Of a stretch of DNA of 33,061 nt, positions 11,364 through 31,980 are shown piece by piece. Both the position numbers and the translations under genes were made by a program. The stretch lies in assembly GCF_014696315.1 (NCBI RefSeq), contig NZ_JACJPX010000085.1, positions 1-33,061 on the forward strand, given 5' to 3'. The number at the start of each line of letters is the position of its first letter. Within the stretch, counting starts at the first letter, position 1. Below the pieces are notes generated by a model. The model searched no databases and had not been told where the DNA came from. It saw only the letters and a program-made list of their open reading frames with translations. This DNA comes from Calothrix membranacea FACHB-236 (GTDB lineage: Bacteria > Cyanobacteriota > Cyanobacteriia > Cyanobacteriales > Nostocaceae).

Positions 11364-13538
11364 ATGCGAGTTTCTTCTGCTGCAATTTTTACTTTAGCGA
11401 CCTTGGCGGCTGGTAATGCCACTCAACAAGCAATGGCTGCGCCCGGCCAAGATTCTCTTCACACTGAAAAAGCAAGTAAATTAGTAGTTCCGGTGATTGA
11501 AGACTCGCCAGCAAGGGTAGAAGCGGTTTCAGCACCAGAGACTGTAGTTGCCCAACAATTTTCCCAAAATCCTGTAGTTGTGCAAACAGGGGTGAATAAC
11601 AACTCCGCAGTTATGTTAACTCCGGAACAGGGTGAAAAGAAGAATATACTTCCTACTCCACCTATAATTATTCGCACGCCTTCTGCACCTGTTTCTCTCA
11701 ATCAAGGAACACAGGGGAATGCTCAGGCGACAATTCCTAACACTTCAACTCAAAAGGTAACGCCAGTTGTTACGCCTCCAGCCGTAACTCCGCCAACAAT
11801 TGACAATAATTTAGTTGTCACCGCCACAGATGTGCAGATATTGGGTGCAAGCCAGGAATTACAACAGATAGTTCGCCAGGTAATTAAAACCCAAAAAGGC
11901 GGAGATACTAGTCAAAGCCAGCTGCAAAAAGATGTAACAGCAATTTTGAATACAGGTTTATTTACCAGCGCTAATGTTAATAGCCGCACTACACCAGCCG
12001 GGTTGAATGTAGTGTATCAGGTACAGCCAATAGTAGTGCGATCGCTGCAACTTTCTGGGGCAAAGGCGCTGACTTATCAAGTCGCCCTAACACCCTTCAA
12101 ATCGCAAATCGGTGCTGTCATTAGTCCGGCTGCACTCCAGCAAGCAGTACAACAAATTAATAAATGGTATGCCGATAACGGTTACAACTTAGCGCGGGTG
12201 ATGTCAATTAAACCCAACCGCGAAGGAATTTTGACTGTTAATGTTGCCGAAGGTTTGGTAGGGGATATCAAGTTTCGCTTTCTCAATGATGATGGTCAAA
12301 GCGTTGATAGCAAAGGTAATCCTGTTAGTGGGCGGACTAAACCAGATTTTATTCGCCAGCAACTCAAACTTAAGCCTGGTCAAATCTTCCAAGAAAATAC
12401 TGTGAGGCAAGATGTGCAACAACTTTATCGCACAGGCTTATTTGAAACTGTCAATGTAGCTTTAGAAGGGGATGCCAACAAGGTAGATTTAGTTTACGAA
12501 CTCAAAGAAAATGGGGCCCGTGCAGTTAACGTTGGTGGTAGTTACAACGCCGACCAAGGAATTTTAGGCACCTTAACTTATCAAGACCAAAATGTTGGCG
12601 GTATCAACAATACTGTAGGTTTGAATGTCGGTGTGGGATTGCGTGACTTTCAATTTGATACTAAATATACAAGTCCCTATCGCGAAACTAGCCCTGATAC
12701 CCTAGGATATACAATCAATGCCTTTCGCCGTCGCGAACTCTCGCTGACATTTGATGATGAAATTCCATTAGCAAACGGTGATAGGGCTAGAGAAGGGCGA
12801 ATTGGCGGTGGTATTAGCTTGCAAAGACCCATTGATGATTGGGATACATCCTTAGGATTTAACTATAACCGCATTAGTATCCGCGATCGCCAAGGTAATA
12901 TTACCCCAACCGATGCCAAAGGAAATTCTTTAACTGCTAGTGGTAGTGGGATTGATGACCTGACAACAGTATCTTTTACCGCTACCAAAGACCGACGCAA
13001 TAACCCCATCAATCCTACTCAAGGTTCTGTTCTCAAACTCAGTACAGAACAATCAATTCCCATCGGTCAAGGGAATATATCCATGAACCGTGTCACAGCG
13101 AATTATAGCCAGTATGTACCATTACAGATATTTGGTAGCAAACAACCACAAGTATTTGCCTTAAATGTCCAAGCGGGGACAGTTTTAGGGAATTTACCAC
13201 CTTATGAAAGCTTTAACTTAGGCGGTTCTAATTCCGTGCGCGGTTACAATACTGGGGATGTGGGAAATGGTCGCAGTTATGTGCTAGCTTCCGCAGAATA
13301 TCGCTTTCCTATTGTCTCAGCAGTGGGTGGTGTATTGTTTGCTGACTTTGCCTCCGATTTAGGTTCTGGTAGTAGCGTTATAGGAGATCCCGCAGGTGTA
13401 CGCGGTAAGCCAGGTACTGGTTTTGGTTATGGTGCAGGAGTGCGTTTCGACTCACCCCTGGGCTTAATCCGGGCTGACTATGGTATTAACGACCAAGGAG
13501 AAAGCCGTGTACATTTCGGTATTGGACAACGCTTTTAA
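11364..13538 (+). CDS. Omp85/BamA-family outer-membrane protein
   Basis: An outer-membrane beta-barrel assembly or translocation protein. The chosen start at 11364 gives a signal peptide MRVSSAAIFTLATLAAG ending near AMA. The frame is open back to 11217, but that part is non-coding in character. After a Pro/Thr-rich linker come three POTRA domains (the second ends NVAEGLVGDIKF; the third contains LKPGQIFQENTVRQDVQQLY) and a 16-strand-type barrel. The barrel has the loop-6 signature GGSNSVRGY and ends in a terminal Phe (GIGQRF), the usual recognition signal. Three POTRA domains match cyanobacterial Omp85 rather than five as in proteobacterial BamA. The divergent neighbour is an LpxB-like envelope gene, consistent with an envelope locus. 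Confidence 0.92.
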   Translation: MRVSSAAIFTLATLAAGNATQQAMAAPGQDSLHTEKASKLVVPVIEDSPARVEAVSAPETVVAQQFSQNPVVVQTGVNNNSAVMLTPEQGEKKNILPTPPIIIRTPSAPVSLNQGTQGNAQATIPNTSTQKVTPVVTPPAVTPPTIDNNLVVTATDVQILGASQELQQIVRQVIKTQKGGDTSQSQLQKDVTAILNTGLFTSANVNSRTTPAGLNVVYQVQPIVVRSLQLSGAKALTYQVALTPFKSQIGAVISPAALQQAVQQINKWYADNGYNLARVMSIKPNREGILTVNVAEGLVGDIKFRFLNDDGQSVDSKGNPVSGRTKPDFIRQQLKLKPGQIFQENTVRQDVQQLYRTGLFETVNVALEGDANKVDLVYELKENGARAVNVGGSYNADQGILGTLTYQDQNVGGINNTVGLNVGVGLRDFQFDTKYTSPYRETSPDTLGYTINAFRRRELSLTFDDEIPLANGDRAREGRIGGGISLQRPIDDWDTSLGFNYNRISIRDRQGNITPTDAKGNSLTASGSGIDDLTTVSFTATKDRRNNPINPTQGSVLKLSTEQSIPIGQGNISMNRVTANYSQYVPLQIFGSKQPQVFALNVQAGTVLGNLPPYESFNLGGSNSVRGYNTGDVGNGRSYVLASAEYRFPIVSAVGGVLFADFASDLGSGSSVIGDPAGVRGKPGTGFGYGAGVRFDSPLGLIRADYGINDQGESRVHFGIGQRF

Positions 13539-16228: not shown

Positions 16229-16570
16229 ATTATTGGGTTGGAAATTAACTTCTATATCTTGCTGAAGTGAATATATTTATTACATCCTTCTTATAGCAGT
16301 TTTCTTATATTGACAGCACATGCTGATTTTGAATTCTGCAAATTTCTGTAAAGGTTTAAGAAATGCTAAGTTTCTATAATCTTGGGTTAGCCTTTTTAGA
16401 TTTAAATGAAACATTAAATAAATATTTTTTAATTTTATGCAGAGACGAATCTGAGGCGCAAAAACGTAAATAAGAGCGCACCAAAGAAACTTTACCAATA
16501 TAAATCGATTGCATAACTATAGAATTCATATTTGATTTATGAAATACAAAGGTAAGTTAGCTTTACCTAA
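16229..16570. other. Intergenic stretch without supported gene
   Basis: AT-rich, upstream of the Crp-family gene. A 72-codon frame on the minus strand (16280-16498) has no family resemblance and no ribosome site, so it was not called. A GCGTAGCC motif at 16581-16588, common as a dispersed element in cyanobacterial spacers, lies just to the right. Confidence 0.4.
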
Positions 16571-16831
16571 CCCACCAAAAGCGTAGCCCGTGATCTCATA
16601 TCCTCATTTTTTAGTTTTGTATTAGAGAAACAATCAAAAGAAGATATCGAGCTTAAAGGAGACTTAATTAGGTATGAAGATCAACCAGAATTCAATAATT
16701 TTCTAGACGAAGAATATCCCTTAGAAGGAAAACTACTTTATAGCCAAGCACTGTACACCCTTTACTATGAAAACTACGAGATTCGGCTACAAGCTTTCGT
16801 TGATGAACAAGCAATGTTACATGAAGAGTAG
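16571..16831 (+). pseudogene. C-terminal fragment of unrecognised gene
   Basis: An open frame of about 86 codons ending in TAG at 16829-16831, with protein-like composition (for example LYSQALYTLYYENYEIRLQA, then FVDEQAMLHEE). It has no ATG, GTG or TTG until its last few codons, and an in-frame stop at 16568. It therefore looks like the 3' end of a gene whose 5' part was lost, perhaps at the GCGTAGCC-type repeat around 16581. The family was not recognised. Confidence 0.4.
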
Positions 16832-16928
16832 CGCATTACGGATAAATCTATTTGTGTAAAATCAAAGTGCAGCAGAAATTTTTCTATATGAAAGTGTGCG
16901 AGTCATTCAACCCAGGAGTTTCCCTAGC

Positions 16929-17528
16929 ATGATTGCAGTCAAAGACAACGCTCCTCACCTCACCCCAGACGAGTACTTTGCCTGGGAAGCAACCCAACTA
17001 AAAAAACATGAATACATCGACGGCAAAGTTTACGCCATGAGCGGCGGTAGTGTAAATCACGGTCGTATCGCCATCCGCTTCACCGCCATGTTCGACAGCC
17101 ACTTAGAAAATACAGGTTGCATCACGGGAAATTCTGATGTCAAAGTCAATATCTTTGGCAGTAATAACTATACTTACCCAGATGCCAGCGTTACCTGCGA
17201 CAATCGTGATAAAATCACAACCCAATATATTACCTACCCCTGCTTGATCGTTGAAGTTCTTTCCGACAGCACTGAAGCCTACGACAGAGGCGGCAAATTC
17301 CGAATGTACCGCCAAAACCCAGCTTTAATTGATTACTTACTAGTCAGTTCTACTAGCATCGAAATCGATTTGTATCACAAAAACGACGCAGGCGACTGGT
17401 TGATTATCAACTACAAAGCAGGCGATACGATCGAACTCAAAAGCATTAACTTCAATTTCCCCATTGAACAAGTCTATCGTGCTTTAACCCTCACCCCAGA
17501 AACCCCAACAGACATCATTAAGGAATAG
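16929..17528 (+). CDS. Uma2-family (DUF820) nuclease-fold protein
   Basis: 199 residues from the chosen ATG at 16929, which has AGGAG ten bases upstream. A GTG at 16896 would add 11 residues and has no site. It is a member of the Uma2 family, very abundant in cyanobacteria, with a PD-(D/E)xK restriction-like fold. Visible are the N-terminal LTPDEYFAWE, YIDGKVYAMSGGS with NHGRIA, then YPDASVTCD and IVEVLSDSTEAYDRGGKF, which carry the Asp, Glu and Lys of the presumed active site. The biological role of the family is unproven. The gene is complete and stands alone just outside the mobile region. Confidence 0.85.
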   Translation: MIAVKDNAPHLTPDEYFAWEATQLKKHEYIDGKVYAMSGGSVNHGRIAIRFTAMFDSHLENTGCITGNSDVKVNIFGSNNYTYPDASVTCDNRDKITTQYITYPCLIVEVLSDSTEAYDRGGKFRMYRQNPALIDYLLVSSTSIEIDLYHKNDAGDWLIINYKAGDTIELKSINFNFPIEQVYRALTLTPETPTDIIKE

Positions 17529-17553
17529 ATCGTAGGTAATAAATACTTTCTAG

Positions 17554-17706
17554 GAAGTGCGACTAGTTGCTTTTGAGCTACATAAGCAGGGTAAATATCC
17601 TACTGAATCTGCTGTCTCAGAGCTAATTTGCAAACCAAGGTACTTCCTATACAAAAAAGTTAGATCAGCTCTTAGAGAAGCGAATCGCGAATTTGAGTTA
17701 TTATAA
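17554..17706 (+). pseudogene. TnsD/TniQ-like C-terminal fragment
   Basis: A 50-codon frame bounded by an upstream in-frame TAG (17551-17553) and ending in TAA (17704-17706). The product contains ELHKQGKYPTESAVSELI, then CKPRYFLYKKVRSALREANR. The pattern of YP, a spaced Val, a short helix with KP and a final LREA helix resembles the C-terminal helical repeats of TnsD/TniQ-type target selectors. The resemblance is from memory and the fragment is short. It sits about 120 bases outside the transposon left end, so it would be a relic of another Tn7-like element or of a disrupted host gene. Confidence 0.35.
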
Positions 17707-17826
17707 AGCTTAAAAATTACCTAGAAATTAGAACCATAACTCTGCCGCCTTCTATTGAAAATATAAGCTTGCCATCGCAGCAAAGTTATGGGTAAAGTCA
17801 CAATAAAACTGACAATAAATATTTAA

Positions 17827-17890
17827 TGTACAAGTGGTGTCCATTAAATAATTATTGTCCATTTTAAAGAATTCTTGTCTATTTTCAATT
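17827..17890 (+). mobile_element. Left end of Tn7-like (V-K-like) transposon
   Basis: The sequence begins TGTACA (17827-17832), the terminal hexamer of type V-K transposons as I recall them. Three spaced copies of a TGTC-centred repeat follow: GTGTCCATTAAA near 17838, TTGTCCATTTTAAAG near 17855 and TTGTCTATTTTCAA near 17875. Their spacing is about 17-20 bases and they are candidate TnsB-binding sites. The five bases before the end, TTTAA (17822-17826), would be one copy of the target duplication. No matching right end was found in the window. Confidence 0.65.
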
Positions 17891-18038: not shown

Positions 18039-19940
18039 ATGCCCAGGAAGCCTACGAGCGAAGCCTTTCCAGGATTAGAGATTGAGGAAGTGGCAAAGAA
18101 GGAAGAAGAGCAAACAAAGCACCTACTAGTTAACGAAGATTCATCCGACTATCTTAAAAAGGTGGAATTAATAGATGCCATCCGCCAAGCACCTAACAAA
18201 GCAGCTCGTATGGATGCGATCGCAGATGCGGCGAAAGCTTTGGGTAAAAGCACCCGAACTATTAAGCGCATGGTGGAGAAAGTTGAACAGGTAGGAGTTG
18301 TAACTCTAGCTGTTGGACGTAAAGATAAGGGACAATATCGTATTTCCCAGCAGTGGCATGATTTTATTGTGAACCTTCATAAATGGGGTAACAAAGAAGG
18401 TTCTCGGATAAACCACAATCAGATTTTTGGCTATTTAAAAGCTTTAGCTTCCCAAGGAGAGAAGCTAGAACAAAAGAAGCATGATGAAAAATTTAAGGGA
18501 TATTCTCAAGTTAGAGAGGATTTAATAGCAGGCAAACATCCTTCTCATGTCACTGTTTATAAAGTAATAAATGCCTATATAGAAGAAAAAAATAAGACAT
18601 TACGCCATCCGGGTTCACCCATCGAAGGACAAATTATTCAAACAACAGAGGGGATTTTAGAAATCACCCACAGCAACCAGATTTGGCAAATAGACCATAC
18701 TAAGCTAGATATTTTGTTAATTGACGAAGAAGATAAAAAAGTTATTGGTCGTCCATATATTACGTTGGTGATGGATAGCTATTCTGGGTGTGTGACAGGT
18801 TTTTATCTAGGTTTTGAACCTGCTGGATCACATGAAGTTGGTTTAGCTCTGCGTCATGCAATTTTGCCAAAGCACTACGAAACTGAGTACGAGCTTCAAG
18901 AAACATGGCAGGTGTGCGGAATTCCAGAATATATAATGACAGATCGTGCGAAGGAATTTAAATCGGCACATTTAAAACAAATTTCCCTACAATTAGGTTT
19001 TACGCGGCGGTTACGTGCTTTTCCTCAAGCAGGTGGTTTAATTGAATCAATATTTGACAAAATTAATAAAGAAATTTTGTCTTTATATGGTGGATATACT
19101 GGTTCAAGTGTAGAGGAACGTCCGCCAGAAGCAGAAAGGACTGCCTGTCTGACGCTTGATAAACTAGAGAAAATCTTAGTGAGATATTTTGTAGACCATT
19201 ATAATCGTCATGATTACCCAAGGGTGAAAAATCAAAAACGTATTGAGCGATGGAAATCAAGGTTGCTGGAAGAACCTGAAATCCTTGATCAACGTGAACT
19301 AGATATTTGTTTAATGAAAGTTGCGATCCGCAATGTAGAAAAATATGGTTCTGTCAACTTTAAGGGTTGGGTATATGAAGGAGACTGCTTGTTAAATTAT
19401 GAAGGGAAGCAAGTTTCTTTAAGATATGATAAGCGTAATATTACAACTGTTCTTGCTTATACTCGCCCTATTAATGGTGAACCTGGAGAGTTTATTGGTG
19501 TTATACAAGCTAGAGATTGTGAACGAGAAAGAATGTCTCTGGCAGAATTGAATTATATTAAGAAGAAATTGCGTGATGCAGGTAAAGAAGTTGATAACTC
19601 TTCTATTTTGAACGAGCGATTATCTACATTCGAGGATGTTGAAAAAAACCGCAAGGAGCGACGTAGACACCGCCGGAAAAAAGCCCAGCAAAAACATGAG
19701 GCTAAATCTAATAAATCCAAAATAGTTGAGTTATTTCCTGAAAATTTCACAACAGAGGAAATAATAAATTCACAAGAAAATTTAACATCTAATTTTGACG
19801 TAAATGCCAAAAATATTGTAAATTCAATAGATAAGCAAATTACGCAGAATAAACCTAATCCTAATCAAACATCTAAAGCTAGACGAAGACCTAGAGTAGA
19901 TGTGAAAGATTGGAACCAATTTTTGAAGGATAATTTGTAA
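18039..19940 (+). CDS. tnsB: TnsB-type DDE transposase (V-K-like)
   Basis: 633 residues; GGAG lies eight bases before the ATG. It catalyses the DNA strand transfer of a Tn7/Mu-type element. Domains: N-terminal helix-turn-helix segments (about 45-110; KSTRTIKRMVEKVEQVG), an RNase H-fold integrase core (about 200-350) and a basic C-terminal region. The DDE triad is intact: D219 in WQIDHTKLD, D302 in MTDRAKEF, E336 in AGGLIESIF. LTLDKLEKILVRYFVDHYNR and RELDICLMK are close to ShCAST TnsB as I remember it. No TnsA-type endonuclease gene is present, as in V-K elements, so cointegrate products would be expected. It forms an operon with tnsC, five bases downstream. Confidence 0.92.
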   Translation: MPRKPTSEAFPGLEIEEVAKKEEEQTKHLLVNEDSSDYLKKVELIDAIRQAPNKAARMDAIADAAKALGKSTRTIKRMVEKVEQVGVVTLAVGRKDKGQYRISQQWHDFIVNLHKWGNKEGSRINHNQIFGYLKALASQGEKLEQKKHDEKFKGYSQVREDLIAGKHPSHVTVYKVINAYIEEKNKTLRHPGSPIEGQIIQTTEGILEITHSNQIWQIDHTKLDILLIDEEDKKVIGRPYITLVMDSYSGCVTGFYLGFEPAGSHEVGLALRHAILPKHYETEYELQETWQVCGIPEYIMTDRAKEFKSAHLKQISLQLGFTRRLRAFPQAGGLIESIFDKINKEILSLYGGYTGSSVEERPPEAERTACLTLDKLEKILVRYFVDHYNRHDYPRVKNQKRIERWKSRLLEEPEILDQRELDICLMKVAIRNVEKYGSVNFKGWVYEGDCLLNYEGKQVSLRYDKRNITTVLAYTRPINGEPGEFIGVIQARDCERERMSLAELNYIKKKLRDAGKEVDNSSILNERLSTFEDVEKNRKERRRHRRKKAQQKHEAKSNKSKIVELFPENFTTEEIINSQENLTSNFDVNAKNIVNSIDKQITQNKPNPNQTSKARRRPRVDVKDWNQFLKDNL

Positions 19941-19945
19941 TTGCC

Positions 19946-20866
19946 ATGTCGGAGATAAACTTAGCCAATACCAATCTAGAATTTCAGAAGTCGTTTGATG
20001 CGAGTTTGCAATCTGCTGAGGAACTACGGCGATCGCCTGAAGCGCAAGCTGAGGTTGAAAGAATTGGTAAAGCTAACACTTACCTTCCTCTAGATCGTGA
20101 TACGGAATTATTTGACTGGCTTGATGACCAGCGTGATGCAAAACTCTGTGGTTATGTTACATCTGCTACGGGTTCCGGCTTACTAAAAGCCTGTCAACTG
20201 TACAGGACGCAATACGTAAAACGAAGAGGAACTCTGTTAGAAATCCCTGCAACTGTTCTCTATGCAGAAATTGAACAGCATGGTGGACCAACGGATTTAT
20301 ATTGTTCGATTCTAGAAGAAATTGGTCATCCGCTTGCTCATGTTGGAACACTGCGAGATTTGCGATCGCGTGCATGGGGAACTATTAAGGGATATGGTGT
20401 CAAAATACTCATCATTGGTAATGCCGACTACTTAACGTTGGAAGCTTTTAACGAGCTAATTGATGTTTTTACAAAAATGCGAATTCCCGTTATCTTAGTC
20501 GGCACTTACTATCTAGGCGATAATATTCTTGAACGGAAAAGTCTCCCATACGTGCGCGTTCATGACTCGTTTTTAGAGTCATACGAGTTTCCTAATTTAA
20601 ATGAGGAAGAGGTAATTGAGGTTGTAAACGATTGGGAAGAAAAATTTTTACCAGAGAAGCGTCGATTAAATCTTACCCAAATGGAGAGCGTAGTTTCTTA
20701 TTTGCGGCTAAAATCTGGAGGTTTGATTGAGCCTTTGTATGATTTACTTCGCAAGATTGCTATTCTAAAAATGGATGAGCCACATTTTGAACTGAATCAA
20801 TATAATTTAACGAAACGGTTTGGCAAACGTAAAGAACCAAAAGTTAAATTTAAAAGAAAAAGCTGA
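19946..20866 (+). CDS. tnsC: TnsC-like AAA protein with degenerate ATP site
   Basis: 306 residues, five bases after tnsB. TnsC proteins are AAA+ regulators that polymerise on DNA with ATP and link the target selector to TnsB. Family features kept: FDWLDDQRDAKL before the P-loop, LIIGNADYLTLEAFNEL in the Walker B region, and VILVGTYYL at sensor 1. The P-loop region reads VTSATGSGLLKAC (71-83) where GxxxxGKT is expected, with no Lys-Thr pair. Walker B has Gly158-Asn159 in place of Asp-Glu. Both ATP-binding and hydrolysis residues thus appear lost, although the frame is intact over its full length. It also carries a roughly 45-residue N-terminal extension and a basic C-terminal tail (KVKFKRKS). 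It may bind DNA without ATP, or need a second TnsC. Confidence 0.85.
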   Translation: MSEINLANTNLEFQKSFDASLQSAEELRRSPEAQAEVERIGKANTYLPLDRDTELFDWLDDQRDAKLCGYVTSATGSGLLKACQLYRTQYVKRRGTLLEIPATVLYAEIEQHGGPTDLYCSILEEIGHPLAHVGTLRDLRSRAWGTIKGYGVKILIIGNADYLTLEAFNELIDVFTKMRIPVILVGTYYLGDNILERKSLPYVRVHDSFLESYEFPNLNEEEVIEVVNDWEEKFLPEKRRLNLTQMESVVSYLRLKSGGLIEPLYDLLRKIAILKMDEPHFELNQYNLTKRFGKRKEPKVKFKRKS

Positions 20867-20920: not shown

Positions 20921-21433
20921 ATGGAGCCAGAAGTATTACAAAATCCGCCTTGGTATATCGAACCGAAGGAAGGAGAAAGTATCAGTCACTATTTTGGTCG
21001 ATTTAGGCGACACGAAGCAGTCTGTGTATCATCACCTGGAACTTTAAGTAAAGCTGTAGGAATTGGTCCAGTATTAGCAAGGTGGGAGAAATTTCGATTT
21101 AATCCGTTTCCTAGTCAAAAGGAATTAGAGGCAATTGGTAAATTAATTGGCTTGGATGCAGACCGAATTGCTCAAATGCTCCCTTCCAAGGGTGAAAAAA
21201 TGAAATTAGAGCCAATCCGCTTGTGTGCTGCATGTTATGCAGAGCAAGCATATCATCGACTGGAGTGGCAGTTTCAATCAACAGTGGGTTGCGATCGCCA
21301 TCAGTTACGTTTGCTGTCAGAATGTCCCTTTTGCAAAGAGCGTTTTGCTATCCCAGCGTTATGGGAACAGGGAGAATGTAACAAGTGTCATGCGCCTTTT
21401 AGAAGTATGAAAAAGCGACAGAAAGCTTACTAA
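20921..21433 (+). CDS. tniQ: TniQ target-selection protein (V-K size)
   Basis: 170 residues, the short TniQ form of type V-K elements (ShCAST TniQ is about 167). The N-terminal TniQ motif EGESISHYFGRFRR (17-30) is followed by LARWEKFRFNPFPSQKELEAI. Two zinc-binding units follow: C102/C105 (LCAACYAE) with C124 and H127 (CDRHQL), then C135/C138 (CPFC) with C153/C156 (CNKC). All ligands are present. It lies 54 bases after tnsC on the same strand, completing tnsB-tnsC-tniQ. In known systems TniQ joins TnsC to the RNA-guided effector. Here no effector is in sight, so how the target is chosen is open. Confidence 0.92.
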   Translation: MEPEVLQNPPWYIEPKEGESISHYFGRFRRHEAVCVSSPGTLSKAVGIGPVLARWEKFRFNPFPSQKELEAIGKLIGLDADRIAQMLPSKGEKMKLEPIRLCAACYAEQAYHRLEWQFQSTVGCDRHQLRLLSECPFCKERFAIPALWEQGECNKCHAPFRSMKKRQKAY

Positions 21434-22019: not shown

Positions 22020-22059
22020 AAAGGCGATCGCATGGTTTGGCGACTGGGCGATCGCCTTT
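22020..22059. repeat. 12-base inverted repeat of HIP1 octamers
   Basis: AAAGGCGATCGC (22020-22031) and GCGATCGCCTTT (22048-22059) are perfect inverted arms around a 16-base loop. They lie in the divergent spacer between the small acidic gene and the ribbon-helix-helix gene. No T-run follows on either side. Confidence 0.8.
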
Positions 22060-22064
22060 GCTTT

Positions 22065-22112
22065 GTTACTATATTGTAGTTACTTGTTGTTACTAAAACA
22101 AGACCGTTACTA
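22065..22112. promoter_or_regulatory. Four GTTACTA-type direct repeats
   Basis: GTTACTA at 22065-22071, GTTACTT at 22079-22085, GTTACTA at 22089-22095 and GTTACTA at 22106-22112, all in one orientation and 75-122 bases upstream of the ribbon-helix-helix gene. Spacing is irregular (14, 10 and 17 bases). They are candidate operator half-sites for that regulator. Another copy with similar flanking sequence lies at 21484-21490. Confidence 0.5.
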
Positions 22113-22186
22113 CAAAATTTTTCAAACTCTACAAAATTGAGGTAAATAGAGTTATTACAGATTTAAGGTTTGAAGCGATAACGAAC

Positions 22187-22444
22187 ATGGCAAAGCGTCA
22201 GACAACAAAGCTGAACAATCAAATCATCGTCAGAATGGACGATGAGACAAAGGAAGCTTTTATGGATAAAGTTCAGTCTGAAGGGAAAACAGCTTCGGAA
22301 TTAATTATGGGATGGATACGTTCTTACCTTGCGGAAGAACGTCACGAAACGCCAGATTTAACCAAAATGCACAATGAATTGGAGAATCTCAAGCAGCAAG
22401 TTGCAGTAATTCAGAACGAACTCTTGGGAAAAACCGCAGCCTGA
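22187..22444 (+). CDS. Ribbon-helix-helix DNA-binding protein
   Basis: 85 residues. Residues about 11-48 fit the ribbon-helix-helix (Arc/CopG) fold: a beta strand NQIIVRMDD, helix one TKEAFMDKVQSEG and helix two TASELIMGWIRSYLAEE. Residues 58-82 (LTKMHNELENLKQQVAVIQN) form a short coiled coil that would add a dimer contact. It could be the antitoxin-like or repressor protein of the element. Small Arc-type regulators near tns genes have been reported for V-K transposons, but this one has not been matched to them. GTTACTA repeats upstream suggest autoregulation, and a terminator follows. Confidence 0.7.
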   Translation: MAKRQTTKLNNQIIVRMDDETKEAFMDKVQSEGKTASELIMGWIRSYLAEERHETPDLTKMHNELENLKQQVAVIQNELLGKTAA

Positions 22445-22513
22445 GAGATGAAAATGATTCTCTCAGGCGATGGATAGACGAAATTATTAATTCTGCACCC
22501 AGAATTCCAAAAG

Positions 22514-22545
22514 ACCCGTCAGACACATGACGGGTTTAGCTTTAT
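22514..22545 (+). terminator. Terminator after ribbon-helix-helix gene
   Basis: ACCCGTCA (22514-22521) pairs with TGACGGGT (22528-22535) around the loop GACACA, followed by TTAGCTTTATT. It lies 70 bases past the stop codon. Confidence 0.6.
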
Positions 22546-22836
22546 TAGAGAGCAAATTGTTATTACAAATATATATAAGTAGTAACTAATTAATTGCAGT
22601 TGCGATCGCACTCGAATGATAGTCTCTTATGTATAAGCTAATATGGCTCTTCTTCTGTAATTCTGATGTAGTTAAAGTAGCTTAAAAAGAAGCTGAAATG
22701 AGATGATTTTGAGTATCGCAAGGAATGTGATCGCACTTGGTTAAGATCGCTAAGTCGATAAAGTTACGAAATTTGAAGCCATCATATTAATATGACTGGT
22801 ATCGTACTGCTTCTTCTTGTTGTCCAAAGATTTAGT
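22546..22836. other. Spacer, no gene seen
   Basis: AT-rich DNA with one HIP1 octamer and a TAGTAAC (inverse of GTTACTA) near 22582. No transposon right end, Cas12k fragment, tracrRNA-like anti-repeat or CRISPR repeat could be found here, which is the position where V-K elements often carry them. Confidence 0.4.
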
Positions 22837-25800
22837 TTAAAAACCTTTGATTAATAATTCTAGATAATTAATATTATCTTGATAACTTAAATAGTCATTA
22901 TAATTCCCACTAAATTCACAGGGAGTGAATCCATCATAGTAAAGTTGACTGCGGTAAAACCAAGAGGAATTTTCAATAACTTTATAAGACTTATCACTAA
23001 CATTATATGTAGAAGATGTAGCATAAAATTCATCTTCATCTTGATATTTGTATTCATCTTCATACTCATCATCTACATCCTCATACTCATCATTTATTTG
23101 ATAAATCTTATGGATACTATGTGATGTACTAGACAGATTATTTCCATACTCAAAACTTGATTTTTCAGATAATTTGGATGTAGATATCTCCTTCTTAGGT
23201 TCTAATATTGGTTTAGGTTTTATATCTACTTGTGTGCTGAAAGTTTCCCGTGAAGTAATTTGTGGGGCATTAACTACGGTTATATTAGCAGAGTTGCTAA
23301 TGATCCCAACAGTGGCAGTAACAGTAATATTTTTATATTTATCATCTACAGATAAAGTACCGTTAGAGCTGATACTGCCACCTGTTGTCTTCCAAACTAC
23401 GTTACTAACCTGTATTTCATGGTAGTGCTGGTCTAAACCTATGACTTTAAAATTAATCTTTTCATAGGGTTTAAGCTGTACTTTATAAGGAGAAATTTCT
23501 AAGTATCTTAAAACAGGTAGAACTGTAACTTCTGCGGAGGTGCTAACATAAGCTTTTGCCTGCTTAAAACTCAATTTACTAATAAATAGAAGAGTGCGGA
23601 AAATTAGTTTATTAATAGATTTATGTATCCATGCTTGTAAAGACACCTCAAAATTATCTATTAATGTAGATGTAGCACTAACTTCAGATAAATCTTCTGT
23701 ACTTTCCTCAGAAGTATATTTATCTTGTACTTGTGCCAAAACACGAAGAAGATAAGATAACAGTCTTATCGAAATACCAACGTTAACGAGTAATATTCTT
23801 GTCTTTTTGTTGAATTTATAGTTTAAACGAGAGCTTGCAGTTACCCAAAATAAACCCTTAGCATTAAAATCAGCAATGAACTTACCATTTTGGTCAATTT
23901 CACCACCACTTGCTTCCCATAAAATTTCTCCTGGATCAATCTTCTCACCGTACTGATCAAAACCAATGACACTAAAAATTTGACTTTCATTAGGTTTCAG
24001 TTGTACAGCAGGTGGAGAAATCTGCAATTTTCTTAATATCGGCAGCAAAGTTACATCAGCTGATTTGTGAATATTACCAACCGAGGCAGTAACAGTGACC
24101 TTTCTGTGGCTATAATCACCTTGGAATAATCCCTGGCGGCTAATTGAACCTCCTTGGCTTGATTTCCAATCAACTATTTTAAGTGCTATTTCAGCATTTT
24201 GCTGGTCAAAACCAACAGCAGTAAAAGTTTGAGTTGCTTCAGGTTCTAGCTGTATTTGAGGAGGAAAAATATCTAATCGTTTTAAGACTGAAGGAACAAT
24301 AACATCAGCAGAGACACTTAATTTTCCAACAGTAGCAGTAATGGTAAATTGACCTTTTTGATTGCTATCAGTAAAGTAGTTACCATTTTGCTCAATACTA
24401 CCACCTGTTGCTTTCCAATTTATTCCACTGATAGAGATCGCATTCCCGCGCTGATCCAAACCTATTAGCTCGAAATGCTGGAATGTCTCAGGAGACATTA
24501 CAATTTGTTCTGGGGAAATCATAAGTTGAGTCAGTCTCGAAGGTTCAATTACCTTGAAACTGGCTGTACCTACAATATTTCCTAAGCTTGCAGTTACTGT
24601 GATATTCGCATCTTTGTCAACTGCTACAAAGGTTCCATCAGGATATATCTTGCCTTCAGTTGTTTGCCAACAGATATTTTTGATTTTGACTTCGTTTCTA
24701 AATTGATCAAATCCCCTAACCTTCAAATTAAGCCGTTCATTCGGTTTAATTTGCATCCTGTGTGGCTCAATTTCTAAACTTGTCAAAACCGGAAGCAACC
24801 TGACACAAGCCACATCACTTAAATTCCCTATGGAAGCGGTGATGTGAACTATATCTGTTTCGTCACTACCTATGAAAGTACCGTCGTCATTAATCTGTCC
24901 TCCTGATGTACATTGCCAATCAACTCTTGTTGTGGGAATTTCATCTCCTACCTGGTCAAATCCTATGACACTAAAGGTTTGGATTTGATTGGGTTCAATT
25001 TGTAAGTTCTTGGGAAAAATTTCTAACCGTTGCAAAACTACAGGTATAGCAACTTTAGCAGTAGCACTTATATTGTGTTCAATTGCACTAGCTGAGATGC
25101 TAAAGTCACCCTTAGCATTGTCAGTAACTATGAAATTTATGTCTTGATCAATTGTTCCACCTGTGGCACTCCAAGCTATTTTCCCAGTTGCGATCGCATT
25201 ACCACGTTGGTCTAAACCTCTAACGCTAAAGCGTTGATGTTCACCAGGTTTCATTTCAATTTGTTGGGGTGAAATGACTAATGTAGTTAATTTCGCAGGT
25301 TCAATAAAATTAAGGGTTGTAGAGCTACTAATATCTCCAACACTAGCAGTGACAGTAATTTTTTGCTCTTGGTAACTTGCTTCCAATCTACCGTCGGGAG
25401 AAATTGTCCCACCTGTTGCATACCAAGAAATTTCTTTGATATTGATATTGTTACCATACTGATCCACACCTTGGACAGTAAAATGTAAACTTTGCCCGAA
25501 CTCTAGAGTTGGTTGTAAAGGTGAAATAATTAATTTTTGAAGCTTTGGTGCTTCAATTAGTGTGACTAAGCCAGAGGCTGTTACTGCTTCTACATTTGCT
25601 GTAATTGTAAATGCGCCAGGGTTTTGTCCTGCATGGAAAGTTCCATCAGCATCAATAGCGCCACCTGTTGCTTGCCACAACACTTTTTCTACAGTAATTT
25701 CGGAACCTCGCTGATCGAAACCTCTGATTTTCAAAATCTGAGTTTTACCACACTCCAACTTTGTTTGTTGAGGTATAATAACTAATTTTGTCAATTTGGG

Positions 25801-27426
25801 AAGTTCGATAATAGTAACTGATGCAGAAATGTGAAATATTTCTGTTGTAGCTGTAACTTTAAATTTACCCTCTTTTTGACCTGCTATAAATAAGCCATTT
25901 TGATAAATCTCTCCACCTTCTGCCTGCCATAATAACTTTTCGACATTAATCTCTCGACTATATTGGTCAAGTCCTTTAATACTAAAAGTTTGGCTCTGAC
26001 CACATTCCATCTTTAGTTGAGAGGGAAAAATTGATAACGAGCTTAATCTTGGTTCAGAACAACCCTTGAGAGGATGGAGTAATTGACCTGTATGTAAATT
26101 CCAAAGTTTGATCCAGTCATTACTGGCAGTGGCAAGAATTTTGCCATCAGAACTGATAGCAGCAGAATCAACAAAGCCAGCGTGACCTACCCAATTACGA
26201 ACTAATTGCTTTGTTTGAGCATCCCACTGCTTTATTGTATTATCGTCACTCACACTGATAATAGTGTTACCATCAGCACTGATAAGGATATTATTGACTG
26301 AATCGTATAAATTTGTATCAATAAACTTGCAAAATTTTAAATCAGAAATATTTAATTTTAATGTATCGTTATCTCTTGTGCTAAGTAGGTTGACTAATCC
26401 AAGTAATAGCGCACCAAGCCAAAAAAAATCTCCCACGGTCAATTTACTAATTACAAATAAAGTTATTAACCCTATAATTTGGCTAATTAATCCTGGTTTT
26501 TCTAATTTAAAATATTTTGATTTATTGCCACTATCGGAATCCGAACGCAAAATTTTAATATTTCCATCACGACTTCCACTTATCAATAAGTTGCTATCTT
26601 GACTAATACTGACTGCTTTTACCCAATCTACATGCTGTTCTAAGCTGCGATATAATTTTCCTGATTGTAGATTCCATAATTTAACCGTATTATCTGTACT
26701 ACCACTAACAATAGCTTTGCCATTTGAGCTAATTGCTAGGCTCAAGACTGAACCAGAATGCTTCAACAGCGTATGTTGCAATTGATTTGTATCAAAATTC
26801 CAGATTTTTATTGTTTTATCGGCACTCGCAGTGATTAAAGTTTTGCCATCAGGTGTGATAGCGACAGCACTAACCCAGTTGGAATGAGCATTTATTTGTC
26901 GAATTAATAGCCCAGTTTTTAAATTCCAAAATTTAACATTTTTGTCTGCACTACCACTGACAAGAGTATTACCGTCTGGACTAATAGCCACGGATAAAAC
27001 CCAATGAGAATGCCCATTAATGGTGCGAAGCAATTCTCCTGTCTGTAAATTCCAAACCCAAATTTTTTGCCAACTTCCGCCTACTAGAATTTGGTTATCA
27101 TGACTAATAGCAACACACGCAATTGTGTCTGTGGGAAAGATCCGCTTAGAGGAGTTTGCTTCTTGAGAATTTTTGCGGAGATAAGGATTGTATTGATGGA
27201 GTATCCAGTAAGCCGATTGTCGTATTTTTTCCGATTGATCCTGCAAAGCCTGCTGCGTAAACAAATCAAACCCTTCCTGACCTAGTGTCAGTGCTTCTTC
27301 TAAAGCCATGAGTCTCTGCTGTTCACAATTGTCTGCTAAACGCTGCTTGACATCTGCTAGCCGTGCAGATTCTTTTGATTTGTTAGCCATTTCTTCTTGT
27401 CGATGCACTAGTCTCAGTATTCCCAT
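22837..27426 (-). CDS. WD40 propeller plus ten Ig-like repeats, 1529 aa
   Basis: An N-terminal charged helical region (1-95) is followed by seven WD40 blades (about 98-456; WVWNLQTGELLRTINGH, VKFWNLKTG, IKIWNFDTN, VKLWNLQSG and so on). Between blades five and six, residues about 300-360 form a hydrophobic hairpin (LISQIIGLITLFVISKL, then WLGALLLGLVNLL). From about 461 follow ten Ig-like units of about 80 residues with the pattern LxxLxIxP, GxDQxGxxI, W-ATGG-I-xxG and ITVTASxG. Unit nine is split by an insert of roughly 90 residues containing two hydrophobic helices. The C-terminus is acidic (DEYEDVDDEYEDEYKYQDED), then aromatic. There is no signal peptide and no enzyme motif; it may be a scaffold or adhesion-like protein. 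MANKSK at residue 13 is an alternative start. Confidence 0.85.
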   Translation of the reverse strand: MGILRLVHRQEEMANKSKESARLADVKQRLADNCEQQRLMALEEALTLGQEGFDLFTQQALQDQSEKIRQSAYWILHQYNPYLRKNSQEANSSKRIFPTDTIACVAISHDNQILVGGSWQKIWVWNLQTGELLRTINGHSHWVLSVAISPDGNTLVSGSADKNVKFWNLKTGLLIRQINAHSNWVSAVAITPDGKTLITASADKTIKIWNFDTNQLQHTLLKHSGSVLSLAISSNGKAIVSGSTDNTVKLWNLQSGKLYRSLEQHVDWVKAVSISQDSNLLISGSRDGNIKILRSDSDSGNKSKYFKLEKPGLISQIIGLITLFVISKLTVGDFFWLGALLLGLVNLLSTRDNDTLKLNISDLKFCKFIDTNLYDSVNNILISADGNTIISVSDDNTIKQWDAQTKQLVRNWVGHAGFVDSAAISSDGKILATASNDWIKLWNLHTGQLLHPLKGCSEPRLSSLSIFPSQLKMECGQSQTFSIKGLDQYSREINVEKLLWQAEGGEIYQNGLFIAGQKEGKFKVTATTEIFHISASVTIIELPKLTKLVIIPQQTKLECGKTQILKIRGFDQRGSEITVEKVLWQATGGAIDADGTFHAGQNPGAFTITANVEAVTASGLVTLIEAPKLQKLIISPLQPTLEFGQSLHFTVQGVDQYGNNINIKEISWYATGGTISPDGRLEASYQEQKITVTASVGDISSSTTLNFIEPAKLTTLVISPQQIEMKPGEHQRFSVRGLDQRGNAIATGKIAWSATGGTIDQDINFIVTDNAKGDFSISASAIEHNISATAKVAIPVVLQRLEIFPKNLQIEPNQIQTFSVIGFDQVGDEIPTTRVDWQCTSGGQINDDGTFIGSDETDIVHITASIGNLSDVACVRLLPVLTSLEIEPHRMQIKPNERLNLKVRGFDQFRNEVKIKNICWQTTEGKIYPDGTFVAVDKDANITVTASLGNIVGTASFKVIEPSRLTQLMISPEQIVMSPETFQHFELIGLDQRGNAISISGINWKATGGSIEQNGNYFTDSNQKGQFTITATVGKLSVSADVIVPSVLKRLDIFPPQIQLEPEATQTFTAVGFDQQNAEIALKIVDWKSSQGGSISRQGLFQGDYSHRKVTVTASVGNIHKSADVTLLPILRKLQISPPAVQLKPNESQIFSVIGFDQYGEKIDPGEILWEASGGEIDQNGKFIADFNAKGLFWVTASSRLNYKFNKKTRILLVNVGISIRLLSYLLRVLAQVQDKYTSEESTEDLSEVSATSTLIDNFEVSLQAWIHKSINKLIFRTLLFISKLSFKQAKAYVSTSAEVTVLPVLRYLEISPYKVQLKPYEKINFKVIGLDQHYHEIQVSNVVWKTTGGSISSNGTLSVDDKYKNITVTATVGIISNSANITVVNAPQITSRETFSTQVDIKPKPILEPKKEISTSKLSEKSSFEYGNNLSSTSHSIHKIYQINDEYEDVDDEYEDEYKYQDEDEFYATSSTYNVSDKSYKVIENSSWFYRSQLYYDGFTPCEFSGNYNDYLSYQDNINYLELLIKGF

Positions 27427-27709: not shown

Positions 27710-28414
27710 TCAATAACTTCCCAGGGGGGAACGGTTCAACTCATCCTTATAAAATTTCCAATTGGGGAGAAATTTATTCATCAAAGCCACAAAGCGATCG
27801 CCATGATTGCGTTCTAACAGATGTACCATTTCATGAACTACAACGTATTCTAGGCACTGCTTGTCTTTTTTCGATAGTTCCAGGTTGAGCCAGATGCGTT
27901 TGGCTTGAATGTTGCAGGTTCCCCATTTGGTTTTCATTAGTTTTACCCCCCAGTCCTCAACCTGAACTCCCATGTTCTTTTGCCATTTGGCGATTAATGA
28001 GGGAATATCTTGTTTTAACTGCTGTCGATACCAGGACATCATCACTTGTTGGCGTTGCGCTTCATCACTTCCTGGCTTGACATAAAGGTCAATATATGTA
28101 TTATTTCTAATTTCTACTTTGGGAGTTCCCTGACAATAAATTACATTTAGTAAATAGCGTTTACCTTGAAAATAATGGCTTTCACCAGAGACAAATTCTC
28201 TGGGTGATTGGCGTTCTTGTGTTTCAAAGTTAGCTTGATGCTTTTTAATCCAGGCTAATTTGGAGATAGCGAATAAACGCACAGCTTCGTCATCCAGGTG
28301 TAAGGGTGTGGCGATACGTACTCGACCATCAGGGGGGTAAACTGCCAAGTGCAGGTTTTTAATGTCTTTTCTGGCAACGTCTATGACGAGTTCACCAACT
28401 GTAATTTGATGCAT
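27710..28414 (-). CDS. YgjP-like zinc metallopeptidase
   Basis: 234 residues of the YgjP/SprT-like (DUF45, often labelled M48) type. The zinc site is HEMVH at 194-198 with H204 in ERNHGDRF as the likely third ligand. KTKWGTCN (162-169) is the family's conserved segment before it. No membrane helices, so a soluble enzyme. The ATG follows the hsdR stop codon by a single base, which implies translational coupling. Genes of this family are often found directly next to type I restriction genes; their role there is not established. Proteolytic control of the restriction subunit is one possibility. Confidence 0.88.
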   Translation of the reverse strand: MHQITVGELVIDVARKDIKNLHLAVYPPDGRVRIATPLHLDDEAVRLFAISKLAWIKKHQANFETQERQSPREFVSGESHYFQGKRYLLNVIYCQGTPKVEIRNNTYIDLYVKPGSDEAQRQQVMMSWYRQQLKQDIPSLIAKWQKNMGVQVEDWGVKLMKTKWGTCNIQAKRIWLNLELSKKDKQCLEYVVVHEMVHLLERNHGDRFVALMNKFLPNWKFYKDELNRSPLGSY

Positions 28415-28415
28415 C

Positions 28416-31400
28416 CTAATACTCGCTTTGGTTTTTGACTATTTCAAAAATGCGTTCTACATCTTCTAGAGAATCTAGATGTTGTTTAATGGCATTTTTT
28501 ACTTCGCGTTCTTTGATTTTGTTTCCCCGCCATCCATCTTTTTTGGTTTTGCGAATCGCTTCATCTATCGCTAGAGCTAATACTTCGTCTTGATTAAGGT
28601 TTTCGTATAAAGCCTGTTTAGCATCAGAGTTCAATGATTGAGGATACTCTGAGGAACTGCTGGGTTGAGCAACTTGTTTACTTAACTCAACAATTTTCTG
28701 CAAGTAAGCTTGATATTCTTGGGATGCTGTTTTTCTGGCTTGAATCAATTCGTCCAGCAATGTGGACATTTTCTCAAAATATTTCGGGTTAGTTGGTTGC
28801 TTGTCAATGATAACTTTGCGTAAGTTGTTTTCAATGGTTTCTGCTACTGCTGTTTTGTTCTGCTTGATGCCTTGGGGTAATGCGTTAACAGCATCAGCAC
28901 CCCTTTTGACTATCAACTCAACCAGTGTCATGTCGTCAAAGGTAGCAATAGTTTCGCTTTCTTCTGCACCAATGTAGTTATCTATTAAGTGGCGCATAGC
29001 GGGTTCATAGGCTTTTAAATCAATATAATCTCCACTGGCAAGTTTTACCTCAGCACGTACCTGTTCGTAATGCTTAACTTCTTGTTTAATAGTGTCGATT
29101 TCTGCTGTGCTGTACCCAGCTTGTACCATGTCATTAGAAAGGTTGGCATAGGCACGAACGAAAGCGGATGTGTATTTATACAGGGCAACACGCTTTTGCT
29201 GGTTGTCTTGAACGCTGTCTGGTTTGTCATTATCCCCGCAGAAATAGCGGATATAGGCAGGAGTATCTTGAGGTGGCTCTACAGGTTCGCAAAGGGCTTT
29301 AATAGCTTCTCTAGTCTCTTCTAGGCGTTCTCTGCCTTTTTCTAATCTGTCACTCAATAAGCCATCAACGTCGTCTACGTCATAATCTTCAAAAGCTTCT
29401 GAGGTATAGTCCTTAACTGATTTTTCTAAGCTTTTAAATAGGTCTTTGTAGTCGATAATATAGCCATATTCTTTATCTTCCCCATCTAAGCGATTGACAC
29501 GACAAACTGCTTGAAACAGTCCATGATCACGCATGGTTTTATCAATGTAGAGATAGGTAGCAGGAGGAGCATCAAAGCCTGTTAGAAGTTTGTCAACTAC
29601 TATCAGTAGCTTCATTTGGGCAGGTGATTTGATAAATTTCTCTTTAACTTCCTCCTCAAACTTCTCTGGACTTTTCCCATTCAGCATTTTTTTATAAATT
29701 TCGTATTGCTGGAGCTTTTGAGTGCGTTCATCGTTTCCGGTACTTTCGCCTTTAATGCTTTTCTCTGAGGCATCATAAGAGGTGATAATGGCGCATTTAG
29801 TAAAGTCTGCTGCTTGAAATAACTCATAATATTTACAAGCTTCGTAAATGCTACCTGCTACGAGAATGGCGTTACCCCGTCCACTTTGTAGTCTGTCTTT
29901 GGTTTCAAAATCTAGGATAATATCGCCGACAATTTTACTCAGGCGTGATTTAGAACTGAGGACTCTTTGCATAGTTCCCCAGCGTTGCTTAAGTAGGGTT
30001 TTCGCTTGTTCAGTTAAGCCTCTAGTTTTGGCTTCAAACCATTGGTCAATTTTGGTTTGGGAGGTAACATTTTGTTCTACTTTACGAGCTTCGTAGCGTA
30101 AATCTAGAACAACTTTATCTGTCACAGCTTCGTCAAATTTGTATGTGTGAATGTACTCCCCAAATATTTCTAGGCTATTCCGTTCATCTTTTTTGAGTAT
30201 GGGTGTACCAGTAAAGCCAATGAACAAGGCATGAGGCAAAATTTCCTTCATGGCTTTGTGCAATTTACCTGTTTGGGAGTGGGTGCGATGACACTCATCA
30301 ACAAAGACATAAATATCGCCTTTGACTTGGAAGTTCTGGGGTAAACTGCTCTTGAGTTGGGCTATGTAGTTGTCGTAACCACGTTGTTCTGCATTACTGT
30401 CTTTTCTGCCAAATTTATGGATTAAGGAGCAAAGTAACCAAGGGGTAGTATTATTCAGTTGGGTAATTAAGTCTTGACCACTTTTTGTGCGATAGATGTT
30501 TTCGTTAACACCTAAAAACACTCCTTCAATTTGCTCATCTAGTTCTTCCCTATCTGTCATAATTAAGACACGAGCATTAGGGTTATATTCCCGAATCCAT
30601 TTGGTAAGCCAAACCATAGTTAAGCTTTTACCACTGCCTTGGGTATGCCAGATAATGCCCCCTTCCTTACGGGAAAGATAAACTTGGGCTGCTTTGACAC
30701 CAAAATACTGATTATGTCGGCAGAGTTTTTTCACACCACAGTCAAAGACAACAAAATTGTGGATAACTTCGAGAAAGCGGGTTTTGTCGCAGAGTTGAAG
30801 TAGATGTCTATCTAAACGATTCTCGATGTCGCTGTAGGTGTCTTCTTTCCAAGTAAGGTAATATTTTTCTGCGGTTTCGATAGTACCATAGCGAAGTCCT
30901 TCGGTGTCATTACCTGCCATGACTAACTGCATGATGTTAAAAAAGGACTTGATAAATATAGAATTTTGATTATCGAGGTTTTGGCGGATACCTTCGGAGA
31001 CGGAGACGGTGCTGCGTTTAAGTTCCAGAACACCAAGGGCGATGCCATTGATGTATATAACTATATCTGGGCGTTTGGTATTTTCGCCTTTAACGGTGAC
31101 TTCTTCTGCGATCGCAAAATCATTTTCTAGAGGTTCTTCCCAGTCGATCAGCCAAACGGTTTGGGTGTTCTCGCCAACTTCTTCTTTGACATTAACCCCA
31201 TAGCGCAGGAGGCTATAAACTTGTTTGTTGATGTCATAAAGGCTTTTGCTTTGATCGCCTGCGACTTTGTTGAGTTCATACAAGGCTTTGGCGATCAGGC
31301 TGTTGCTGTAGCCTTGTTTGTCGCGGAGGAAGGCGGTGAGGATTTCCGTTTCGATGTTGCTGTTGTTAGGTCGGTCGTGCCAATCACCCAGATAGCGATA

Positions 31401-31472
31401 GTCTAATTGTTGCTCGAATAATTGCACAATGCGGTTTTGGGTTAGGCGTTCGCGTTGTCCGACCTGGCTCAT
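28416..31472 (-). CDS. hsdR: Type I restriction enzyme R subunit
   Basis: 1018 residues, a normal full length. The N-terminal PD-(D/E)xK nuclease shows D136 in RPDIVIY and E150/K152 in VLELKR. The superfamily 2 translocase has Walker A QGSGKS at 278-283, DECH at 392-395 and GFTGTPI as motif III. Motif VI-like [16 protein letters not shown] follows, and the C-terminal helical part would contact HsdM/HsdS. All key residues are present, so the subunit itself looks functional. It would cleave unmodified DNA together with HsdM and HsdS. It is preceded by a toxin-antitoxin pair and a truncated hsdS, and is coupled to the metallopeptidase downstream. No hsdM is in the window. Confidence 0.95.
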
Positions 31473-31575: not shown

Positions 31576-31980
31576 CTAGCTTAATGTTTGTAGCCAGGAA
31601 GTACCTGTAAGATTGGTATCGACTGTAGCTAAGGTCAACTGGTGGTGAATTGCTGTAGCGGCAATAAAGCGATCGCCTGGGTCTTGATGCGGTAGCTGAA
31701 TCTGACGGCTTAAAATAGCGATGTGGCGGTTAAGTGGAGCCTCACGAATTTCTAGGGTATTTAAGGCTAAATCAACCCATGCAACTGGATTAGGCTGTAA
31801 AGATATTCGTCCTTTTTCTGCTAAGAGTAGAGTTTCCCAGATACTAATTGGACTGAGCCAAAGTTCGGTTGTTACTGCTGCAATAGTGGTTTGAAGTTGA
31901 GGAGATAGGCGTTCGTTACCAAGTAAATACCAAAGCCAGATGTGGGTATCAAGTAAGAGCTTCACTGAAGTGCTTCCCAT
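31576..31980 (-). CDS. PIN-domain toxin, VapC-like
   Basis: A PIN-fold ribonuclease of up to 134 residues. The acidic active site is visible: D11 in LLLDTHIWLW, E49 in ISIWETLLLA, D100/D103 in DPGDRFIAATA and D121 in TVDTNL. VapC toxins cleave tRNA or rRNA and are held by the antitoxin. Two starts are possible: ATG at 31980, overlapping the antitoxin gene by 19 bases, or GTG at 31965, giving a four-base GTGA overlap with the antitoxin stop. Either way the pair is translationally coupled. It sits inside the restriction locus between hsdS and hsdR. Confidence 0.88.
   Translation of the reverse strand: MGSTSVKLLLDTHIWLWYLLGNERLSPQLQTTIAAVTTELWLSPISIWETLLLAEKGRISLQPNPVAWVDLALNTLEIREAPLNRHIAILSRQIQLPHQDPGDRFIAATAIHHQLTLATVDTNLTGTSWLQTLS

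Follow-up and report, generated by a model that had tools for sequence, protein, structure and literature searches.

The window, that is, the whole stretch of DNA that was analysed (33,061 bases), is an entire contig (C149) of its genome and carries tnsB, tnsC and tniQ in that order on one strand. The first gene (18039–19940, + strand) encodes a DDE transposase of 633 amino acids that matches ShTnsB (E 1.1e-106), and the acidic residues of QIDHT (D), MTDRAKEF (D) and GGLIE (E) align with their D, D and E counterparts in ShTnsB. We take these aligned residues to be catalytic. The last (20921–21433, +) encodes a short, V-K-type TniQ of 170 amino acids (ShTniQ, E 2.2e-57), and the gene between them, tnsC (19946–20866, +), is the subject of this study. 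No tnsA accompanies the three genes, an arrangement typical of type V-K systems: in the window's genome the TnsA profile PF08722 matched contigs C85 and C18 only, with none on C149 or on contig C24 described below.

Upstream of tnsB lies the tnsB-side transposon end (17838–17885, +), made up of TGTCCATTAAATAATTATTGTCC and further TnsB-site-like repeats; the same end precedes tnsB in relatives whose flanks differ. It is bordered by a 5-bp target site duplication, AGTGG (17833–17837), which reads CCACT at the tRNA-side end on contig C24. Five base pairs from the element, an inverted end (17811–17832, −) marks the remnant of a neighbouring element. The stretch at 16286–17837, which is partly host DNA (to 16466), carries a Uma2 gene, ends in the inverted transposon end and is missing from Nostoc linckia (L031), appears to be left over from a further element that occupied this site. 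Downstream of tniQ, a small RelB/Arc-like ORF (22187–22444, +; Pfam RelB E 0.0099, below its cut-off) could be cargo or a regulator, and the surrounding 22053–22609 recurs with 94% identity after tnsC of genome G111 (L004). The cargo continues with a 1529-aa WD40-repeat protein inside the element (22837–27426, −; Pfam WD40 E 5.1e-53), whose WD40 repeats are N-terminal and followed by many further repeats, and with a YgjP-like metallopeptidase (27710–28414, −; profile match), in a stretch that recurs in other loci. Read inward from the contig end, an hsdS specificity domain (32264–32914, −; Methylase_S) is followed by a PIN-domain protein (31576–31980, −; profile match), the type I restriction subunit gene hsdR (28416–31472, −; TIGR00348, 536 bits) and ygjP.

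The other half of the element was found on contig C24, which reads tRNA-Ala(GGC), CCACT, a transposon end of the window type, an anchor spacer, a CRISPR array, Cas12k, hsdM and the start of hsdS. Its Cas12k (678 aa, L101:573–2609; NF038191, 795 bits) is the only full-length one found in the window's genome and lies on a different contig from tnsC. The array contains 22 CRISPR-DR15 matches of 37 nt, and the anchor spacer matches tRNA-Ala(GGC) at 17 of 17 nt next to a GTN-type PAM (GGTA). The methylase gene combines N6_Mtase and HsdM_N domains, and a second hsdS (Methylase_S) follows it at the end of C24. In the relative G359, the host flank of the window and the tRNA side of C24 fall within one 3.9-kb stretch with a solo end between them. 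Because the 5-bp duplication beside the two ends (AGTGG, or CCACT on the other strand), the restriction–modification genes and the host flanks agree, we conclude that one type V-K transposon spans both contigs through a putative join, and that the window is, as read from its sequence, the transposase half of a type V-K CRISPR-associated transposon. In the available passages of PMC9938897, the V-K end beside the tRNA is named the left end and that beside tnsB the right end. The assembled element resembles ShCAST (Scytonema hofmanni, type V-K) in its tnsB–tnsC–tniQ order, Cas12k, 37-nt CRISPR repeats, tRNA-matching anchor spacer of 17 nt, GTN-type PAM and 5-bp duplication, and its Cas12k and TniQ match the Sh proteins with 468 and 197 bits, respectively. 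An Rfam scan returned the tRNA and repeats only and matched no tracrRNA family. The G359 locus itself (L192) holds a solo tRNA-side end with an anchor spacer and no element at that site.

The tnsC frame is open over 306 codons and its product matches Pfam AAA_22 (E 1.1e-15) and TniB (3.8e-7), both above the curated cut-off, as well as ShTnsC, the nearest solved structure (E 1.1e-22, residues 33–276). Homology across the AAA domain and the position between TnsB and TniQ thus bear out its designation as a TnsC relative, which a sequence-only reading of this DNA had made; that reading had also described both Walker motifs as lost in an intact frame, and alignment agreed. At the former P-loop (residues 72–82, TSATGSGLLKA; 20159–20191, +), the stretch SATGSGLL places Leu79/Leu80 opposite Lys66/Thr67 of ShTnsC. 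At the former Walker B motif (residues 156–161, IIGNAD; 20411–20428, +), Gly158/Asn159 replace Asp144/Glu145. The trans-acting nucleotide readers of ShTnsC, Q185 and R189, correspond to R204 and S208. The window TnsC therefore has, unlike ShTnsC, no P-loop, no Walker B DE and no equivalent of R189; we refer to such proteins as dead TnsC.

We retrieved relatives from an order-level draw of 388 genomes, 84 of which had any TnsC-type match; a scan of GTDB contigs yielded 17 relatives of the window TnsC with 66–95% identity in the best segment. A second, class-level draw of 388 genomes, partly overlapping the first, added more distant relatives of the same kind, and two scans of IMG/VR gave no relative. 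The 78 TnsC-type ORFs, a retrieved set rather than a census, comprised 34 dead, 4 intermediate (L137–L140), 3 DN-type (L057, L073 and L079), 31 canonical and 6 partial ORFs. The partial ones (L045, L076, L083, L095, L136 and L148) were left out; L045 has the dead motif and L136 lacks a P-loop. The P-loop Lys, the Walker B Asp, the Walker B Glu and Sh R189 were each present in 0 of 34 dead and 32 of 32 canonical proteins (the 31 canonical ORFs plus ShTnsC). About half of the dead proteins are close relatives, and thinning the set to 22 gave the same pattern. A shifted but complete P-loop was disfavoured at the sequence level, because the pattern [GA]xxxxGK[ST] occurred nowhere in the 34 dead proteins. 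An AlphaFold model built on 15 close orthologues had a mean pLDDT of 45.1, unusable for structure-based alignment, and the P-loop comparison is one of sequences.

The replacement motif is itself conserved beyond chance expectation. T72–K81 is invariant in the window TnsC and 14 intact orthologues (83–95% identity), so the substitutions are common to orthologues, as the search proposed with the sequence-only reading was meant to establish. The codons of the former P-loop vary synonymously, with a pN/pS of 0.042 over residues 70–82, the lowest of nine overlapping segments. Mean dN/dS, computed from intact copies only, was 0.103 for TnsC (15 sequences, 105 pairs), compared with 0.153 for TnsB and 0.094 for TniQ (10 sequences each), indicating purifying selection. 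In a tree with the Walker columns masked, 23 dead rows fell on one side of a branch with an SH-aLRT of 99; this was a quick, midpoint-rooted tree with a warning of long branches meeting, and it left out nine near relatives as well as L128 and L131. Residues such as D52, K81, P101, P129 and Y265 are newly conserved across the dead lineage. Simple decay of the element would account for the broken tnsC copies seen elsewhere (L003, L005 and L046 with internal stops, L045 and L056 truncated), yet it is hardly credible for the lineage, in which a dN/dS of 0.10, a single deep clade and an invariant replacement motif go together with TnsB, TniQ and Cas12k frames kept beside dead TnsC. With motif loss common to 34 proteins of one clade, a dN/dS of 0.10 and no tested segment more constrained than the former P-loop, dead TnsC is, on these substitution patterns, a maintained protein and not a product of decay. 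L137–L140, which lost the P-loop lysine and have DD at Walker B, stand beside the dead clade in the tree and are possible intermediates.

Elements with dead TnsC have also moved. In ten relatives (G389, G395, G400, G393, G397, G396, G169, G325, G296 and L042, which is G398), a single contig carries TnsB, dead TnsC, TniQ and Cas12k, and all ten have an anchor spacer; in G400 one contig spans the two ends, the four genes and the anchor spacer. The tniQ of G296 is split in two frames; the Cas12k match of G397 has stops flagged in one reading, yet a 748-aa frame is open there. The 5-bp duplications match in six of the eight elements with both ends (G000, which is the window's genome, G400, G393, G397, G169 and G296; in G397 using the end nearer tnsB), and in seven of ten when the G394 and G401 pairs are added, G394 matching on two contigs; they do not match in G395, G325 and G401. 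These duplications are not fully independent, because elements at the same tRNA share the 5-mer and some stand in tandem. Of 14 tRNA-side ends, 13 had an anchor spacer with two or fewer mismatches over its 17 positions; the search gave none at G394 and none at the truncated end of G289 (L064), and G328 (L103) has a 15-nt match. In G393, at 7833–7839 of the joined stretch, the tandem layout of the window recurs, with an inverted end 5 bp from the next element's end, and such tandem ends suggest repeated insertion at one tRNA site. On a Gloeothece plasmid (L049, 16534–18580), Cas12k is annotated as two overlapping frames beside an open dead TnsC.

These duplications and anchor spacers bear on a decoy or regulator role, which the sequence-only reading had listed among its options. 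A dead TnsC that dampens transposition or excludes competing elements could be expected to lose all nucleotide residues under strong conservation, as a dominant-negative protein would, and in G169, G325 and G328 other end types do separate the dead element from the tRNA. We nevertheless regard this role as very improbable: dead TnsC occupies the tnsC place of the operon and is the only TnsC seen in an element that also has TnsB, TniQ and Cas12k, and the elements have moved.

A second option, dependence on another TnsC, was addressed by searching the same genomes. In the window's genome, dead TnsC as query (E ≤ 10) found only itself, and a canonical V-K TnsC as query (E ≤ 1e-3) found only dead TnsC. 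The TniB profile matched ten longer frames (361 to 1198 aa) besides dead TnsC, the best of them a 606-aa frame on C85. There, an operon (L216 265–6012 plus 12641–12931 of the contig) combines a TnsA match, a TnsB-like ORF, a distant, 596-aa P-loop TnsC with the motifs GPSGMGKS and VIDEMQ, TniQ/TnsD and Cas6, and a Tn7-type element, perhaps a type I CAST, is therefore also present. Its TnsC gave no significant match to the window TnsC (best E 0.63), and help from it is unlikely. Among 27 distinct genomes, dead TnsC was the sole V-K-type match in ten: G000, G361/G390 (one genome), G325, G296, G267, G388, G392, G395, G397 and G333, of which G267 is 67% complete and G333 has a broken dead TnsC. 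The other 17 have further matches, namely canonical, DN-type, TniB-like or fragmentary ones, so help in trans is possible there. In G389 (Scytonema NIES-4073), for example, a 280-aa P-loop AAA protein lies on another contig, with no tnsB within the 2.3 kb viewed.

We weighed on this basis whether dead TnsC acts as a structural co-subunit, active only in the company of a canonical TnsC that another element in the cell supplies. Both kinds of V-K TnsC, dead and canonical, do occur together in G313, G169, G065, G147, G391, G393, G394, G398 and G400, the window's genome has its Tn7-type TnsC, and Cas12k modules do not track the state of TnsC. However, no canonical V-K TnsC match (E ≤ 1e-3) was found in G000, G361/G390, G325, G296, G395 and G397, which have an intact dead TnsC and a long Cas12k frame, nor in G388 and G392. 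The TniB profile found no frame of 500–620 aa in G361 and G296, and in G325 it gave only one, a 574-aa frame matched over 41 positions with 17.1 bits. The dead clade also has its own TnsB, TniQ and ends. A co-subunit role is thus unlikely, and dependence on a second TnsC has at most weak backing in the window's genome, which has no other V-K-type TnsC.

The Cas12k proteins of dead elements occupy at least three places in a quick Cas12k tree, one of them beside canonical-type proteins, although some canonical labels in that tree come from the genome or from similarity, without a linked TnsC. These scattered positions indicate that different Cas12k lineages have been joined to the dead transposase set. 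Genomes with dead or intermediate TnsC include some with long Cas12k-like ORFs (703 to 843 aa; L169, L172–L179, L181 and L182); the canonical-type Cas12k proteins compared are of about 610 to 660 aa.

What a TnsC of this kind might do can be set against ShTnsC. In the passages available from PMC9876797, ShTnsC forms ATP-bound filaments, TnsB stimulates hydrolysis, this stimulated hydrolysis is tied to targeted insertion in ShCAST, and AMP-PNP inhibits disassembly and leads to non-targeted insertion. Canonical ShTnsC uses ATP to coat DNA, and its off-target filaments are cleared only through hydrolysis stimulated by TnsB, unlike the behaviour we propose for dead TnsC. The residues with which ShTnsC contacts DNA also differ. 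K103 is kept in 1 of 34 dead proteins (canonical: K in 19 and R in 6 of 32), K119 in 0 of 34 versus 23 of 32, K150 in 4 of 34 versus 29 of 32, R182 in 9 of 34 versus 23 of 32 and T121 in 15 of 34 versus 25 of 32, positions at which canonical TnsC proteins are themselves variable. With the ATP site and the trans reader lost, and K103, K119 and K150 nearly so, the dead protein may not coat free DNA and may assemble only on TniQ–Cas12k. Because the ATP site is lost and TnsC nonetheless tightly conserved, ATP may not be needed for guided insertion of this kind.

We therefore consider it probable, from comparison of sequences, that the window holds the transposase end of a V-K transposon of an old lineage in which TnsC, without nucleotide binding or hydrolysis, is a working pseudo-ATPase. 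TniQ and Cas12k would nucleate dead TnsC at the guide-marked site, where it would form, with no need for ATP, a short assembly of fixed size, bridge TniQ–Cas12k to TnsB and hand the site over to TnsB. Specificity would come from weak binding to free DNA combined with templated nucleation. We infer ATP-independence, templated assembly and this route to specificity together. The broader proposal, that the whole lineage captures targets without ATP, with TnsC as a templated ruler of fixed length and fidelity arising from nucleation and not from hydrolysis-driven filament clearing, we consider slightly more likely than not. As a Walker B change severely compromised ShCAST, according to the part of PMC11406308 available, the dead lineage must differ in more than TnsC. 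A further alternative is that the protein is still powered by nucleotide, bound at a different site or without the help of a P-loop. Lys81, two residues past the lost P-loop lysine, is nearly invariant in dead TnsC (K in 33 and R in 1 of 34) and could serve such a site, and residual non-canonical nucleotide binding is possible; as a source of power it is improbable, given that none of the 34 proteins has a P-loop motif anywhere and that both Walker B acids and the trans Arg were lost together. Templated assembly without ATP remains our preferred reading. Overall, the sequence-only reading held in part: of the roles it had offered, ATP-independent target marking appears best supported, and the decoy and second-TnsC options fell behind.

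Insertion offsets, measured between the first base of the protospacer and that of the element, were near-constant within the dead clade, which is a new point. The offset was 54 in nine elements with dead TnsC (G389, G395, G400, G393, G397, G390, G398, G396 and G000), 55 in G401 and 66 in the distant G296; readings of 61 in G169 and 94 in G325 are not measures of offset, because fragments of other ends intervene between tRNA and element. Such a constant offset would fit an assembly of fixed size. Among 18 other ends, ten of canonical type lay at 59 to 63 (L054 61, L154 63, L157 59, L158 60, L159 62 or 12, L161 60, L164 62, L165 62, L166 59 and L168 62), unlike the nine near-clade elements at +54; a canonical TnsC free of stops shares the contig only in L054, L154, L158, L159 and L164, the Cas12k of L054 is broken, and in L054 and L154 the true protospacer start may be four bases further on, which would make the offsets 57 and 59. 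L162 reads 55, 45 or 28, and L104, from a genome with a DN-type TnsC, reads 54. The others gave no offset: L155 lacked a spacer match, the end motif was missing from L156, L160 and L163, and L167 and L169 had no tRNA. Published V-K offsets in the available passages of PMC9938897, PMC12719977 and PMC12765450 are 60–66 for ShCAST, 49–56 for AcCAST and 46–82 with one of 147 in nature, so 54 falls within the known range. The dead elements resemble AcCAST (Anabaena cylindrica) in this respect, as its reported 49–56 bp includes 54 (PMC12719977 and PMC12765450).

Walker-less V-K TnsC proteins are already in print. The source is a 2024 review by Hsieh and Peters. In the part available to us (PMC11406308), it states that in some V-K TnsC proteins the Walker B glutamate is missing, that some have no typical Walker A motif, and that the latter may not bind ATP; its section 9 names no protein, clade, element or test, unlike the present account of the clade, its selection and its elements. 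The accessible passages of PMC10293859, PMC9876797, PMC9371665, PMC9938897, PMC12719977 and PMC12765450, those of Faure et al. 2023 among them, do not mention Walker-less V-K TnsC. A literature search, with preprints and most subscription journals beyond its reach, found no description of the clade or its elements. What is new here is the clade, the selection on it, the element anatomy and the offset. A natural lineage without the ATP site tests whether hydrolysis in guided insertion is a requirement or one of several solutions, and its elements are natural starting points for trying guided insertion that runs without ATP and at a constant offset. Separately, L057, L073, L079, L213 and L214 keep the P-loop (GPRDVGKS) and have DN, not DE, at Walker B, a naturally occurring substitution of the hydrolysis residue.
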